In this document: one piece after another, positions 10,854-16,608 of the stretch
Layout: each line of letters opens with the position of its first letter
Position numbering within the stretch: position 1 is the stretch's first letter
Source: Thermoleophilia bacterium
GTDB taxonomy: Bacteria; Actinomycetota; Thermoleophilia; Gaiellales; Gaiellaceae
Assembly (NCBI GenBank): GCA_025929895.1
Contig: JAICPI010000016.1
Span: 1 to 45,707, forward strand
Direction of reading: 5' to 3'
DNA: 45,707 bases
The notes under the pieces: model-generated
Told to the model about the DNA's origin: nothing
Database searches by the model: none
Seen by the model: only the letters and a program-made list of their open reading frames with translations
Position numbers and translations under genes: made by a program

Positions 10854-10917
10854 GTCGGAAGGAATGCCCGCTCAAGGGCCGAAATCCCCCGGTCCGTCAC
10901 TAGACTTGAAAGGCCCC

Positions 10918-11781
10918 ATGCGCACGATCTGGAACGGCTCCATCTCGTTCGGCCTCGTCAGCATCCCCGTCGGGCTGGCCCTGGCGACGAAACCCGCTGC
11001 GCGTCAGAGCGACGTCAGCTTCCGCATGCTGCACCGCGAGTGCCGCACGCCGATCAGGCAGAAGCGCTGGTGCCCGACCCACGACCGCGAGGTCGGCCCG
11101 GACGAGCTCGTCAAGGGCTGGGAGGTCGCGAAGGGCGAGTTCGTGATCGTCGAGGACGCCGACCTCGAGGCGATCGAGCAGCAGGACGACTCGCGCGCGA
11201 TCGAGATCGACCGCTTCGTCCCGCTCGACGGCGTCGACCCGATCTTCTTCGACCGCACCTACTTCCTCGCCCCGTCGTCGACCGCGGCGCAGCGCCGGCC
11301 GTACGTACTCCTGCTCGAGGCGATGAAGGAGACGCAGATGGCGGCGGTCGGCCGCTTCGTCCTGCGCGGCCAGGAGCACTTCTGCCTGATCCGCGCGCGG
11401 GGCGACGCGCTCGCGCTCGAGACGCTCTTCCTCGCCGAGGACGTGCGCTCGCAGGCGGAGATCGAGGAGGCCGTCGAGGAGACGCAGGTCAAGGACGCCG
11501 AGCTCGCGCTCGCGCGCCAGGTGATCGAGAGCCTCGAGAGCGAGTTCGACGCCGAGGAGCTTCAGAGCGAGTACCGACGCGACCTGCGCGCGATGCTCGA
11601 GGCGAAGCTCGCGGGCGAGGAGATCGCGCGGCCGGAGCCCGTCGCCGAGGACGCGCCGGTCGTCGACCTGATGGAGGCGCTCCGCAAGAGCGTCGCGGAG
11701 GCCTCGAAGCAGAAGGCCCCCGCGAAGAAGAAGACGGCGGCCCGGCCGAAGGCCAAGGCCGCCGCCAGAAAGAGTGCGTAG
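10918..11781 (+). CDS. ku: Ku homodimeric DNA end-binding protein
   Basis: A 287-residue bacterial Ku, which rings broken double-stranded DNA ends for non-homologous end joining and recruits LigD. The N-terminus MRTIWNGSISFGLVSIPVGL is the classic start, followed by the Ku core with FRMLHRECRTPIRQKRWCP, the CPTHDREV region, and the LETLFLAEDVR segment. The C-terminus after about residue 255 is a Lys/Ala-rich tail (KKKTAARPKAKAAARK) like those of mycobacterial and related Ku proteins, thought to bind DNA. The start is ATG 10918, which has GAAAGG upstream and TAGACT at 10901. No ligD is visible in the window, so its partner must lie elsewhere. Divergent from the acyl-CoA ligase. Confidence 0.96.
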   Translation: MRTIWNGSISFGLVSIPVGLALATKPAARQSDVSFRMLHRECRTPIRQKRWCPTHDREVGPDELVKGWEVAKGEFVIVEDADLEAIEQQDDSRAIEIDRFVPLDGVDPIFFDRTYFLAPSSTAAQRRPYVLLLEAMKETQMAAVGRFVLRGQEHFCLIRARGDALALETLFLAEDVRSQAEIEEAVEETQVKDAELALARQVIESLESEFDAEELQSEYRRDLRAMLEAKLAGEEIARPEPVAEDAPVVDLMEALRKSVAEASKQKAPAKKKTAARPKAKAAARKSA

Positions 11782-11787
11782 GCGCTC

Positions 11788-11958
11788 CTAGTGGGGCTGG
11801 GGGAGCGCCCCCAGCGCCTGCAGCTGCGCCTGGAACAGCGTCTTGTCGATCTTCCCCTGGTAGATCGGCACGCCCTCCTGCAGGCAGACGCGGATCACCT
11901 CCTGCCGGTCGATCCCGAGCTCCTTGGACAGCTCTTCGGGCGTGAGGTGATTGGCCAT
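11788..11958 (-). CDS. 56-residue helix-turn-helix-like protein
   Basis: A small gene: ATG at 11958, with a strong GAAAGGAG Shine-Dalgarno, the best ribosome site in the window, ending at TAG 11790-11788. The peptide begins MANHLTPEELSKELGIDRQE and continues through VIRVCLQEGVPIY, a pattern like the N-terminal helices of a winged or MerR/sigma-like HTH (LTPEELSKELGI as the first helices). It could bind DNA or serve as a partner protein; this is inference. It lies 6 bp downstream of, and convergent with, Ku. Upstream are an intrinsic terminator and two tiny ORFs that could form an attenuator. Confidence 0.72.
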   Translation of the reverse strand: MANHLTPEELSKELGIDRQEVIRVCLQEGVPIYQGKIDKTLFQAQLQALGALPQPH

Positions 11959-11989
11959 ACGGCTCCTTTCGCCGGTGACTCCGGAAACG

Positions 11990-12023
11990 AAAAACCCCGC
12001 CTCGCGCGTACGCGCGGACGGGG
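11990..12023 (-). terminator. intrinsic terminator in the leader of the small HTH gene
   Basis: On the minus strand, CCCCG and CGGGG arms enclose a palindromic CGCGCGTACGCGCG core and are followed directly by TTTTT. It abuts the stop codon of the second mini-ORF and precedes the 56-residue gene by about 30 nt, so it would act as an attenuator for that gene or as the end of a short separate RNA. Confidence 0.65.
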
Positions 12024-12082
12024 CTAGAAGCTCCTCTCGGACGGGGCAGGCATCAGCGGGCCTGCTTCCGTGAACTGCTCAT
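12024..12082 (-). CDS. two overlapping 9-residue leader ORFs
   Basis: On the minus strand, ATG 12082 opens MSSSRKQAR-stop. Its TGA overlaps the ATG of a second frame, MPAPSERSF-stop, as TGATG at 12055-12051; the second stop touches the terminator hairpin. TATCCT ends 8 nt before the first ATG. Translation is not proven; the arrangement of promoter, mini-ORFs and terminator is what suggests a leader. The same stretch can also fold with CGGACG/CGTCCG outer and GCAGGC/GCCTGC inner stems. Confidence 0.35.
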
Positions 12083-12090
12083 CGTCCGGA

Positions 12091-12100
12091 AGGATAGACG
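12091..12100. promoter_or_regulatory. overlapping divergent -10 boxes
   Basis: AGGATAGACG carries TATCCT for the minus strand (12096-12091) and TAGACG for the plus strand (12095-12100). The plus ATG at 12107 is 6 nt beyond its box; the minus mini-ORF ATG at 12082 is 8 nt beyond its box. Confidence 0.45.
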
Positions 12101-12106
12101 GCCTCG

Positions 12107-12955
12107 ATGACGGTTGCCACCCTGCTGTCGGGCTTCGAAGAGCGGGTCGAGACGATCCGCGGAGCACCGCTCCGTGCCCTCGTCGGCGGCGCGGCGGAGG
12201 GCACGCCGCTCGTCCTCCTGCACGGCCTGGGCGGCTCTTCGGCCAACTGGGCCCTGCTGGCCCCCCGGCTGGCGGAGCGGCGCCGGGTCGTGCTCGTCGA
12301 CCTCCCGGGACACGGCCGCTCCGGTCCGCTCCCTGCCGCGCCGGGAATCGGCGCCTACGCCGACAGGATCGCCCTGCTGCTCGAGCGCCTGAGTCTCGGC
12401 GAAGTCGTCGCCGTCGGGCACTCGCTCGGCGGGCTCGTGGCACTCCGGCTTGCGGCCCGCCATCCCGACGCCGTGAGCGGGCTCGTGCTGGCCGCGCCCG
12501 CGGGGATCGGCTCGGGGACGAGAGCCGCCGAGCGTGCGCTCGCGTTCGTGGGCTGGGTGCAGCCCGGCCGCAGGATCTCGCGGCATTGGCAGTCGGTGGC
12601 GAGGAGCGGCTCGCTCAAGCGGATGGTCTTCGGCCCGTGGTTCGCCGCCGACCCCGAGGCGCTTCACCCGGACGCCGTCGAGGCCCTGCTCGGCGAGCTC
12701 GACCTCCACACGGACACGCGGAGCGCCTCCCGCGCGCTGACGGCGGACGACCCGCGCCTCGACCTCCACGACGTGCGCTGCCCCGCGCTCGTGCTCTGGG
12801 GCGCCGAGGACCGCCAGCTCCCGGTCGACGACGCGTTCGACTACGCCCGGCGGCTGCGCGCGCCGCTCCGCGTGATCGCGGATTGCGGCCACCTGCCGAT
12901 CGTCGAGCGGCCGGACGCGTGCCTGGACGCGATCGAGGAGTTCCTGGCGCCATAG
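12107..12955 (+). CDS. alpha/beta hydrolase
   Basis: A 282-residue cytoplasmic alpha/beta-fold hydrolase. The oxyanion motif HGLGGSS is at residues 39-45, the nucleophile elbow GHSLGG at 104-109 with S106, the acid is in the WGAEDRQLP segment, and the catalytic histidine in the CGHLP motif near the C-terminus. A cap with several aromatic residues (about 135-200) suggests a hydrophobic substrate. The family includes esterases, lactonases, C-C hydrolases such as MhpC-like enzymes and haloperoxidase-like proteins; the substrate cannot be fixed here. Starts at ATG 12107. Followed by a strong hairpin (12974-13000), so it probably ends its own transcript. Confidence 0.88.
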
Positions 12956-13000: not shown

Positions 13001-13007
13001 CACCTCA

Positions 13008-13081
13008 TCGGGGTGCCCAGATTCGAACTGGGGACCTCTCCGACCCGAACGGAGCGCGCTACCAGGCTGCGCCACACCCCG
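13008..13081 (-). tRNA. tRNA-Pro (anticodon CGG)
   Basis: A 74-nt cloverleaf on the minus strand. Acceptor arms are CGGGGTG and CACCCCG with discriminator A. The D arm is GCGC/GCGC around AGCCTGGTA, the anticodon stem is CTCCG/CGGAG with loop TTCGGGT (anticodon CGG, proline), and the T arm is CCCAG-TTCGAAT-CTGGG. The CCA end is not encoded. It lies 33 bp downstream of the CoA-binding gene on the same strand, so it may be cut from that transcript. Confidence 0.96.
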
Positions 13082-13114
13082 AGCGGGGTACAGGGTAGCT
13101 TCTCCGCGCCTCGA

Positions 13115-14215: not shown

Positions 14216-15673
14216 TCAGCAGCGCTCCGTTCCCTCGCACGAGCGGAGCACCTGCACGTGCGGCACGCCCCCCGGCCGCGTCAACCGCAGCCGGATCGCA
14301 GCCGCGTTGTTGTCGTAGCGGCGCTCGCGCAGCAGCCCGTCCGGGTTCGCACGGTTCACGAGCACGTAGATCCCCGGGCGGGCTCTCGTCAGGTCGACGT
14401 TCTGGCCGTGGAAGTGGGCCGGGTACCGGTCGGTGAACCCGACGGACGATCCCTGCTCGACCGTGCGTGCGCCCGGCGCGCCGGCGGCGCAGTTCCCGAG
14501 GAACGTCGGGCGGCCCGGTCGCACGCCGCGCGCGGTGCCGTAGTGGTCGGCGAGGCAGAAGCCGGTCTTGCGGTCGGTTCCGAGGAGCGAGCTGTCGCTC
14601 GCGCGGCGCAGCTCGTAGCGCGCGAAGCGCAGCAGGTGCCAGTGCGAGTGCGACGACGACCAGGTGTAGCGCAGCGTCCCGGCGTCGCGGTGCGCCTCGA
14701 AGCCGCCGCCGGCGACGCGGACGAGCTGGCGCGCCTGCATGCCCGCCCCGGTGCGCAGGCCGCGGATCCAGAGCGGGCCGAGGCCGACGCTGTCGACGGC
14801 GGACTCGAACCCCAGCTTGTACCGGCCCGCGATCCTCGACACGACGAGCCCGCGCGGCGCGCGCTGGTCGAGGTCGGGCAGCAGCTCGGCGGCGAGGGGG
14901 ACGCGAGCGACGTCGACGCGGCGGCCCGGCCCGAGCGGTCGCGAGACCGTGCCGTCCGGCGCGTAGGCAACGATGTTCTCACTGTGGACAACGACCAATT
15001 CGGACCCGTCCGGGAGCCACACGGGGGCTCCCGCGCCGGAGTGGACCGTCAGCAGCCGCACGTCGGTCGCGTCCGGAGCCATCGTCGCGACTCCGCCGGC
15101 CTCGTGCGCGAACGCAATCCGCCCGCCGTCTGGTGACCAGTCCGGATCCGTTCCGCGGGCGAGCGTGGTCACCGCACCGCCGGACGCAGCGACAACCGAG
15201 ATCGCTCCGTCGCGCACGAACGCGATCCGCCTGCCGTCGGGGCTCCACGCGGGGCGGCCGTCCGAAGGCCCCGTCGTGACCGCCCGCGGCGAGCGCCCGT
15301 TGCGGCGGGCGACGACGATCCGGCCCGCCCGGACGACCGCGATGCTCCGCCCGTCGGGCGACCACGCGGGCTCGGCGCCGGCCAGCAGCACCCGGACACC
15401 CGTCCCGTCCCGGTTCGCGCCGAAGATCGTCCCGTCCCGCTCGAACGCGAGCTCGCGGCCGTTCGGAGCCCACGCCGCGGCGACGGCGCCCCGCGTGCCG
15501 GGGATACGCTGCGCGCGTCCGTCGTCCGCGCGCACCCGCCAGGCACCGTCGTCCCGGACGACGAGCAGCACGACGCGCGTCCGCGGTCCCTCCGCCCCGA
15601 GCGCGGCGACCGCGAGGGCCGCGAGCGCGACCGGGAGGAGCGCCGCGGTCAGAAACCGAGCTCGTCGCGCCAT
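14216..15673 (-). CDS. TolB-type propeller fused to a bacterial lysyl oxidase domain
   Basis: A 485-residue exported two-domain protein. Residues 1-28 are a signal peptide. Residues about 30-245 contain five propeller blades marked by WAPNG (68), WSPDG (104), WSPDG (143), WSPDG (179) and WLPDG (219). Residues about 262-470 form a lysyl oxidase domain: copper-binding histidines H342, H344 and H346 in SHSHWHLLRF, the KTGFCLADH segment with K369, four further cysteines or histidines, and YPAHFHGQNVDL. Lysyl oxidases deaminate peptidyl lysine; the role of bacterial ones is little known. Start ATG 15673 lies within the CoA transferase end (25-bp overlap), implying coupling. The fusion is the oddity, and its substrate is unknown. 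Confidence 0.82.
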   Translation of the reverse strand: MARRARFLTAALLPVALAALAVAALGAEGPRTRVVLLVVRDDGAWRVRADDGRAQRIPGTRGAVAAAWAPNGRELAFERDGTIFGANRDGTGVRVLLAGAEPAWSPDGRSIAVVRAGRIVVARRNGRSPRAVTTGPSDGRPAWSPDGRRIAFVRDGAISVVAASGGAVTTLARGTDPDWSPDGGRIAFAHEAGGVATMAPDATDVRLLTVHSGAGAPVWLPDGSELVVVHSENIVAYAPDGTVSRPLGPGRRVDVARVPLAAELLPDLDQRAPRGLVVSRIAGRYKLGFESAVDSVGLGPLWIRGLRTGAGMQARQLVRVAGGGFEAHRDAGTLRYTWSSSHSHWHLLRFARYELRRASDSSLLGTDRKTGFCLADHYGTARGVRPGRPTFLGNCAAGAPGARTVEQGSSVGFTDRYPAHFHGQNVDLTRARPGIYVLVNRANPDGLLRERRYDNNAAAIRLRLTRPGGVPHVQVLRSCEGTERC

Positions 15674-16608
15674 GCGGCCGTATGGTGTCCGAGACGGGCG
15701 GCTGCTTGCGGGGGCGGGCCGCCGAAGGTCGCGGCGGCTTCCTCGAGCGTCGCGACGGGCCCGACGGCGACGTCCTCCCCGTCGACGAGCGCGAGCCAGT
15801 CGGCGAGCGCCCTCCGCTCGAAGACGTCCGCGAGCTCGCGCGCGAGCGCGTCCTGGTCCGCGTCGAACTGCCGGCCGGCGAGCTCTGGACGGCCGATCAG
15901 CTCGCACAGCCGGCGGAAGAACTTCTCCTCCAGTGCTCCCACCGTCAGGTAACGGCCGTCCTGGGTCGCGTACGTGCGATAGCACGCGAGCCCGCCCGTG
16001 AGGAGCCGCGGGACGGGCTCGCCGCCGAGGCGATGAGCGACGAAGCGGTGCGCGCCGTGCGTCATCGAGACGACCAGCCGCGAGCCGCGGCCGGTCCGTC
16101 CGCGCTCGAGCAGGGCCGCGAGGATCTCGACCACCGCAGCCTGCGCGCCGGCCCCGAGATCCGCGACCTGGACCGGCGGCGGCGCCGGAGCCGTGTCCGC
16201 GAGCGCGCCGGCCCACCCGAGGTAGTTGAGGTCGTGGCCCACCCGGGAGGCGTGCGCGCCGTCGGCGCCGAAACCGGTGATCGAGCAGTAGACGACGCGG
16301 TCGGGCAGGTCGTCGGCCCCGACGCCGAGCCGTGCCGCGACGCCGGGCCGGAACCCTTCGAGCACCACGTCCGCGCGCGAGCAGAGCGCGCGGCCGAGCT
16401 CCGGCTCGGCCTTCAGGTCGCAGACGACCGATTCCTTGCCCGCGTTCAGCGCCGCGTCCCACTCGGGCGCGATCCCGCGCAGCGGATCGCCCTCGGGGGA
16501 CTCGAGCCGCACCACCCTCGCGCCGAGCCGCAGCAGCTCCCTGCTCGCGAACGGGCCCGGCAGGTGCCGCGTGAGGTCGACGACGAGGAGCCCCTCGAGC
16601 GGTTGCAC
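15649..16608 (-). CDS. CaiB/BaiF-family CoA transferase (alpha-methylacyl-CoA racemase-like)
   Basis: A family III CoA transferase of 319 residues from GTG 16608. These enzymes move CoA between acyl groups through a catalytic aspartate, or act as 2-methylacyl-CoA racemases. The N-terminus QPLEGLLVVDLTRHLPGPFAS is the family start, RLGARVVRLESPEGDP follows, ADLGAG contains the catalytic aspartate, and the C-terminal part has the small-domain repeats. The start is GTG 16608 and not TTG 16656: TAGGTT ends 8 nt upstream of it and the family start fits, while the earlier TTG lies in the regulator's operator. It overlaps the propeller-LOX gene by 25 bp. It shares a 32-bp divergent region with tetR and so is probably repressed by it. 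Confidence 0.9.
   Translation of the reverse strand: MQPLEGLLVVDLTRHLPGPFASRELLRLGARVVRLESPEGDPLRGIAPEWDAALNAGKESVVCDLKAEPELGRALCSRADVVLEGFRPGVAARLGVGADDLPDRVVYCSITGFGADGAHASRVGHDLNYLGWAGALADTAPAPPPVQVADLGAGAQAAVVEILAALLERGRTGRGSRLVVSMTHGAHRFVAHRLGGEPVPRLLTGGLACYRTYATQDGRYLTVGALEEKFFRRLCELIGRPELAGRQFDADQDALARELADVFERRALADWLALVDGEDVAVGPVATLEEAAATFGGPPPQAAARLGHHTAAWRDELGF

Follow-up and report, generated by a model that had tools for sequence, protein, structure and literature searches.

A conserved leader of two overlapping mini-ORFs and an intrinsic terminator, a putative translation-coupled attenuator, ahead of a small predicted winged-HTH gene in Thermoleophilia

What do two overlapping mini-ORFs and an intrinsic terminator do when they stand directly ahead of a gene of only 56 codons? 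The question is raised by a locus within a 45,707-nucleotide stretch of Thermoleophilia DNA (the window), a single contig from a genome of 2.6 Mb that is 94.5% complete (approximately 73% GC).

The leader and its parts

A Ku gene (10864-11781) and an alpha/beta hydrolase gene (12107-12955), both on the plus strand, flank the arrangement, which is read from the minus strand. A -10 box, TATCCT (12096-12091), is located 8 nt ahead of the first mini-ORF, uORF1; a -35-like region is present at 12109-12119 (TGGC here, TTGC in most relatives), and promoter comparison in relatives identified a motif CCGTC (12113-12109) in the spacer between -35 and -10. Because the -10 box is this close to the uORF1 ATG, little or no 5' untranslated sequence is expected ahead of uORF1 in the mRNA, and judged from that box a transcription start at 12,084 is plausible. 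uORF1 (12082-12053, 30 nt, ATG to TGA, predicted peptide MSSSRKQAR) was recognized from the sequence and its relatives. It contains an SD-like GGAAG (12065-12069) which, from family-level analysis of Shine-Dalgarno (SD) pairing, would serve uORF2 and which is a weaker SD than that of most relatives. Hairpin 1 (12046-12065, stem GCAGGC/GCCTGC), identified by folding and covariation, holds the uORF1 TGA in its loop. Overlapping this stop in the -1 frame is uORF2 (12024-12056, MPAPSERSF), which runs from ATG at 12053 or CTG at 12056 to TAG at 12024; the junction reads TGATG (12055-12051), and its ATG shares the frame of the overlapping NTG. SD duplex energies picked out a purine-rich SD-like middle element, GAGAGGAG (12031-12038), ahead of the intrinsic terminator (11990-12023), whose stem-loop (12023-11995) begins at the base directly after the uORF2 TAG and is followed by five T residues (11994-11990). 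The 56-codon gene (11958-11788) is preceded by the SD AAAGGAG (11969-11963; duplex energy -7.8 kcal/mol), and homologues and fold prediction suggest that it encodes a winged helix-turn-helix (HTH) protein of the MerR/excisionase/BldC/IF2_N type. A first-pass annotation of this DNA had claimed a -10 box on the minus strand, two tiny ORFs overlapping as TGATG, a stop touching an intrinsic terminator with TTTTT, and a 56-residue gene downstream with its own SD, all of which were recovered at the positions given here.

The leader has a predicted fold of -47.5 kcal/mol, compared with -36.1 (sd 3.6) for shuffled sequences. When the 250 bases upstream of the gene were subjected to 3000 dinucleotide shuffles, a comparable terminator arose 134 times and a comparable uORF1 four times, while terminator and uORF1 never arose jointly, nor did the whole arrangement. 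A simple consensus scan of the window reported neither the -10/-35 promoter nor the terminator of the leader, and the seven matches at E ≤ 5 in an Rfam search of positions 11700-12250 were all far below gathering scores. The start codon of the hydrolase (12107, plus strand) falls inside the minus-strand promoter spacer, so that both genes share promoter DNA. Elsewhere in the window, the minus strand encodes, at 14216-16462, a bacterial protein that has WD40-like (PD40) repeats and matches a lysyl-oxidase domain, and, at 13007-13082, the sole tRNA of the window, a tRNA-Pro with a CGG anticodon.

Conservation of the leader within the family

Upstream DNA was read in 99 loci and in 80 from named genomes, 47 of the latter being repeats. 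The 132 loci left after removal of repeats include 85 from one family (f1, which is probably Gaiellaceae), and these are the distinct leaders counted here; all leader counts are inflated by relatedness. Alignment A3 comprises 76 of the 85 and leaves out L049 (90-nt uORF1), L029, L053 and L180 (no terminator by folding), three leaders with the end of the detected terminator more than 75 nt beyond the uORF1 stop, and the near-duplicates L047 and L132. For L029, L053 and L180 the terminator edge was taken as the first GCCCG, and the edge assigned to L012 is probably incorrect. In L042 the gene is that of IF2 and not the small gene. Neighbouring genes were assigned by tblastn, as raw-ORF clustering was swamped by GC-rich shadow ORFs.

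uORF1 was found in all 85 leaders, starting with ATG in 76, GTG in 8 and CTG in one, and stopping with TGA in every case. Its length is 30 nt in 59 leaders, 33 nt in 18, 27 nt in 7 and 90 nt in L049, the last explained by a frame-keeping insertion of 60 nt; the finder favoured lengths of 27, 30 and 33 nt, and an earlier pass without this bonus gave 27-33 nt in 50 of 52 loci. TANNNT precedes the start codon by 6-10 nt in 85 of 85 leaders, within a search that covered distances of 4-12 nt. The encoded peptide has no invariant position after the start among family leaders, and cysteine accounts for 7 of 711 residues, with no cluster. Arginine codons number 151 in frame, compared with 121 (sd 9) in shuffled sequences and 86 in each other frame, and at least one is present in 81 of 85 loci, at positions that are not conserved one by one. 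This excess is at least partly explained by hairpin pairing and the SD, since pairing holds codon 7 as CNG and so yields arginine without selection for it. In the promoter, CGTC occupies one fixed position in 59 of 85 loci and CCGTC is about as conserved as the -35 region. A promoter pattern including CCGTC gave nine matches in 37 genomes, eight of them at the small-gene promoter, and the motif is a candidate private operator. It also codes for the start of the divergent hydrolase in many loci, and it is present too where the hydrolase is absent.

A stem of 5-8 pairs encloses the uORF1 TGA in most family leaders. Among the 59 ORFs of 30 nt, 53 have the first base of this stem at uORF1 position 17 or 18. 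The mean stem score of hairpin 1 is 15.3 compared with 9.0 (sd 0.37) with shuffled arms. Two-sided changes were observed at all six aligned pairs (48 cells, against 13.0, sd 3.0, when shuffled), and the covariation score of 0.342 (0.156 shuffled) was not reached in any of 500 shuffles. Pairing in only 79% of the cells of a single alignment reflects a shift of the stem by a few bases in some clades.

The uORF1 TGA always overlaps an NTG in the -1 frame, N being T in 40, G in 24, C in 14 and A in 7 of the 85 leaders; the frequent TTG, and the CTG of 14 leaders, count against uORF2. Within uORF1, the SD available to uORF2 has a mean energy of -7.9 kcal/mol, compared with -5.1 (sd 0.24) in shuffled uORF1, and its best position is 6-8 nt ahead of the NTG. 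The first stop in the uORF2 frame falls at the terminator edge (-8 to +2) in 37 of 85 leaders, compared with 3 and 5 in the other frames and 5.1 (sd 2.1) when the middle is shuffled; all three stop codons are used, and in 33 of the 37 the stop ends -1 to +1 nt from the stem. No uORF2 stop occurs at or before the edge in 41 leaders, and an earlier one occurs in 7, early stops being no rarer in this frame than in the others (7, 12 and 7 of 85). When the 76 aligned leaders were clustered by identity, in-frame edge stops numbered 26 versus 3 and 4.3 at 90%, 16.5 versus 2.3 and 3.5 at 80%, and 10.9 versus 1.6 and 3.5 at 75%, the excess falling to 3.8 versus 1.3 and 2.0 at 65%. uORF2 is thus supported in part and is the weaker half of the proposed device. 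Between uORF1 and the terminator, the purine-rich SD-like middle element has a family form of about ACAANCGAGG, is located 4-20 nt upstream of the terminator, and has a mean energy of -5.7 kcal/mol compared with -3.1 (sd 0.24) for shuffles. No pairing partner for it was found in the family leaders; it could pause ribosomes at the uORF2 stop.

The terminator, located by folding in 82 of 85 leaders and part of the minimum-energy fold in 81 of those 82, is the best conserved element of the leader. Of 82 loci, 76 have a gap of 20-53 nt from terminator to gene start and the other six one of 88-123 nt. A TANNNT box lies within the gap in only two loci, and a second promoter between terminator and gene was rejected because the box is absent from 80 of 82 gaps. 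With gaps this short and largely free of the box, the small gene should be expressed mostly by readthrough. L007 has a second terminator-like hairpin between attenuator and gene. T-runs of four or more, as possible pause sites before the terminator, were observed in only 2 of 85 leaders. Antiterminator candidates were rejected in turn: between the uORF1 stem arm and the 5' arm of the terminator, pairing is possible in 82.1% of cells (82.6% shuffled) with covariation of 0.118 (0.123 shuffled); between the 3' arms of hairpin 1 and of the terminator, covariation is 0.119 (0.131 shuffled); and the middle element pairs with a terminator arm less well than in shuffles.

As read in these sequences, the order uORF, intrinsic terminator, gene is conserved in the 85 leaders, and comparison among relatives shows that the frame of uORF1 is kept, as are hairpin 1, the SD inside uORF1, the terminator and the linkage to the gene. 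The first-pass annotation had named joint conservation of mini-ORFs, hairpin and small gene as a check on its reading; uORF1, hairpin 1 and the terminator bear it out strongly, and uORF2, with its 37 edge stops, does so only partly.

Linkage to the small gene and nature of its product

A covariance model of the leader matched 91 of 103 family genomes at E ≤ 0.001, a search that is not an independent sample because the leader set nearly exhausts these genomes. A single match was present in 90; the other genome has two, and a protein search placed a copy of the gene beside each. At a looser threshold a weak second match (E 0.0016) appeared in G024. When 58 family genomes were searched for leader and protein, 51 had both, four neither, two the gene only and one the leader only, in the last case approximately 70 nt from a contig end. 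Upstream neighbours vary, with the hydrolase in 50 of 85 loci and a NIF3-like protein (assigned by Pfam) in 31, these being overlapping sets, and the leader stays with the small gene although these neighbours change. The Ku gene is convergent downstream of the small gene in 68 of 85 loci.

Related forms were observed outside the family. Seven loci of two sister families of the order (five in f2, two in f3) have leaderless ORFs of 27 nt (stop TGA in six, TAG in the seventh) with terminators after them. In f5, ORFs of 33-39 nt are present in some loci and a T-run terminator is missing in most. Longer leaderless ORFs with terminators are found in f7, which appears to represent a simpler ribosome-opened terminator; by eye, the leaderless ORF of L069, L073 and L074 seems to cross the terminator in the direction of the gene. 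No such leader separates promoter and gene in 26 loci of f8, f10 and f11, of which L099 begins with an ORF of 9 nt. A search of largely open-access literature found no description of this leader element.

The 56-residue protein is encoded in 42 of 61 close relatives (34 of 37 within the family) and in 215 of 299 genomes of the class, and the gene is single-copy in nearly all. Nearly all of 80 named relatives of the protein come from metagenome-assembled genomes of Actinobacteria or Thermoleophilia, several of them Gaiellaceae, and two from other phyla. H4, T6, P7, E9, C25, P31, G35, D38 and L41 are invariant in 68 members, C25 being the sole invariant cysteine. The predicted fold (helix, helix, short strand, helix; pLDDT 79.8, pTM 0.58) has its best structural matches among small winged-HTH DNA-binding domains (best Z 6.5, BldC 5.6, IF2 4.4). 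The matched structures include phage terminase subunits, Xis, a plasmid partition protein, BldC, RacA and MerR, with the IF2 N-terminal domain lower. Foldseek with the predicted model gave no match at E ≤ 0.001, a sequence search of solved structures gave nothing below E 0.2, and an NCBIfam search gave only weak scattered matches. Among Pfam families at E ≤ 0.1, IF2_N was matched weakly by 39 of the 68 members and HTH_17 by 13, with the window protein below the cut-off and WhiB absent from the matches. Alignment of the protein's profile with the genome's own IF2_N stretch by hhalign gave 22% probability, and with Pfam matches this weak kinship to IF2 is a lead only. The product looks like a winged-HTH domain, in agreement, at modest confidence, with the 'HTH-like' label of the initial reading.

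A proposed ribosome-opened terminator

We consider it somewhat probable that the leader is a translation-coupled transcription attenuator in which ribosomes re-initiated on uORF2 hold the terminator open. RNA polymerase would start at or beside the uORF1 AUG, so that ribosome loading would have to take place at a leaderless end; the ribosome would translate 8-10 codons and stop at the UGA in the loop of hairpin 1, thereby opening this hairpin. Owing to the NUGA overlap and the SD inside uORF1, terminating ribosomes could re-initiate at once on uORF2. A ribosome on uORF2 would then reach the 5' arm of the terminator, stop there or run into the stem, and keep the hairpin unfolded, allowing the polymerase to read through and the small gene to be made. 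In the 41 leaders with no edge stop it would enter the stem, presumably also disturbing the terminator. If uORF1 or uORF2 were not translated, hairpin 1 would hide the uORF2 start, the terminator would fold, and only an RNA of approximately 95 nt would be produced. The switching step, opening of the terminator by a ribosome, is suggested by the failure of the antiterminator pairings tried to show covariation, which leaves the ribosome itself as the opener. From the arrangement we infer a leaderless start, re-initiation, the direction of control and what is sensed: the sensed quantity is most likely initiation or re-initiation capacity, and impaired translation or poor initiation is predicted to turn the small gene off.

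Each link of this chain is known in other bacteria, and by analogy the whole leader would work like a pyrBI-type ribosome-opened terminator fed by mycobacterial-style leaderless coupling. The pyrBI leader has one SD-led ORF and U-rich pause sites. Here, in contrast, uORF1 is leaderless and overlaps a second mini-ORF, and T-runs before the terminator are rare (2 of 85); as to the pyrBI feature of an ORF that carries the ribosome to the terminator, an edge stop was observed in 37 leaders, no stop up to the edge in 41 and an earlier one in 7. The likeness to E. coli pyrBI, as described in the accessible part of the source, is that a ribosome trailing the polymerase in a leader ORF blocks the terminator without antiterminator RNA (PMC4824070). 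The same part reports that termination fell from approximately 90% to under 10% when the stop codon was placed 5 bp ahead of a terminator, an effect lost when translation was uncoupled; translating ribosomes almost fully repressed a terminator located a few bp after a stop codon, and the terminator recovered once this distance exceeded about 30 bp (PMC4824070). Termination-reinitiation at an AUGA overlap is described for Mycobacterium tuberculosis in the available portion of PMC11260477, and RTGA-coupled leaderless small ORFs are more frequent than expected in mycobacteria according to that of PMC4633059. The present leader shares with these the leaderless small ORF, the RTGA-type overlap and the SD in the upstream ORF; there, as far as the accessible text goes, an annotated gene is coupled, whereas here the second partner is a mini-ORF ending at an intrinsic terminator (PMC4633059). 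In the S. meliloti DUF1127 attenuator, as available in part, a uORF likewise monitors ribosome availability and premature termination controls a small gene; in contrast to the intrinsic terminator here, termination there is Rho-dependent with its element at the uORF start, and translation lowers expression there while it should raise it here (PMC12218461).

By the features tested in these sequences, the leader is not a member of the whiB7 family. WhiB proteins are Fe-S proteins with four cysteines, whereas the product here is not an Fe-S WhiB protein and has one conserved cysteine; the antiterminator pairings tried here are unsupported, and the predicted sign is opposite, impaired translation turning the gene off. 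Poly-Cys leaderless attenuators were reportedly described by Canestrari in 2020, and uORF1 differs from these in lacking a cysteine cluster. In the accessible parts of the whiB7 sources the uORF begins approximately 10 nt after an SD, for which the 6-10 nt between -10 box and uORF1 leave no room. The likeness, within the same parts, is a uORF and an intrinsic terminator ahead of a small regulator gene, and wblC is also said there to be autoregulated at its promoter (PMC4128351, PMC7157823).

This resemblance to whiB7 is what speaks for a classical stalling attenuator of WhiB7/WblC or amino-acid-sensing type, in which a stall in uORF1 would favour an antiterminator and stress would raise expression (PMC4128351, as accessible in part). 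Arginine is the only candidate amino acid, with its excess of in-frame codons and presence in 81 of 85 loci. Such a mechanism is improbable given that two antiterminator pairings lack covariation and the middle-to-arm pairing falls below shuffles, that CNG at codon 7 follows from hairpin pairing, and that no peptide position after the start is invariant. The first-pass annotation had named an attenuator or a short regulatory RNA. The stable fold, strong terminator, single copy per genome and covarying hairpin 1 would also suit an RNA of approximately 95 nt that acts in trans, perhaps encoding a nine-residue peptide, with the gene made by leak. The attenuator half of that claim is favoured because one and the same gene follows the leader at 20-53 nt (76 of 82) with no promoter box between (80 of 82). 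Furthermore, among the 58 genomes the leader stood without the gene only once, near a contig end, and a free RNA, which we regard as unlikely, would not need a conserved reading frame and embedded SD.

Ribosomal proteins set termination within their own leaders. Similar autogenous control, with the winged-HTH protein binding hairpin 1 or the middle element and setting termination, would suit both the nucleic-acid-binding type of fold and a conserved middle element for which no pairing partner was found; it is doubtful, as the gene occurs without the leader in 26 loci of three sister families and such control does not need a conserved reading frame. These sister families, which manage without the leader, and the terminator as the best conserved element are instead what would be expected of plain dampening, in which leakage through the terminator, together with a leaderless small-ORF operon present by chance, would lower expression by a constant factor without sensing. 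To this we give little credence, since it leaves unexplained the constant length of uORF1, its TGA in 85 of 85 leaders, the covarying hairpin 1 and the embedded SD.

The proposed ribosome-opened attenuator can be taken further in a speculative and rather improbable extension, in which the leader would be a gauge of the translation-initiation state and the small protein would have initiation or a regulon as its target and use CCGTC to repress its own promoter. Leaderless loading and SD-assisted re-initiation would act in series and be converted into transcription of the small gene, whose protein has the IF2 N-terminal domain among its nearest recognizable relatives, and the feedback loop would be closed at the promoter. 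This reading is based on the available part of PMC2268962, according to which both leaderless initiation and re-initiation in E. coli are favoured by IF2 and suppressed by excess IF3.

If the proposed attenuator is right, the leader would be a minimal device of approximately 95 nt that converts leaderless initiation and re-initiation into transcription with no antiterminator RNA, and its response to translation inhibitors would be opposite to that of whiB7. The analysis also marks a class-wide small regulator, encoded in 215 of 299 genomes, as worth study. For a large group of uncultured soil actinobacteria, the leader would then provide a natural readout of the initiation state.
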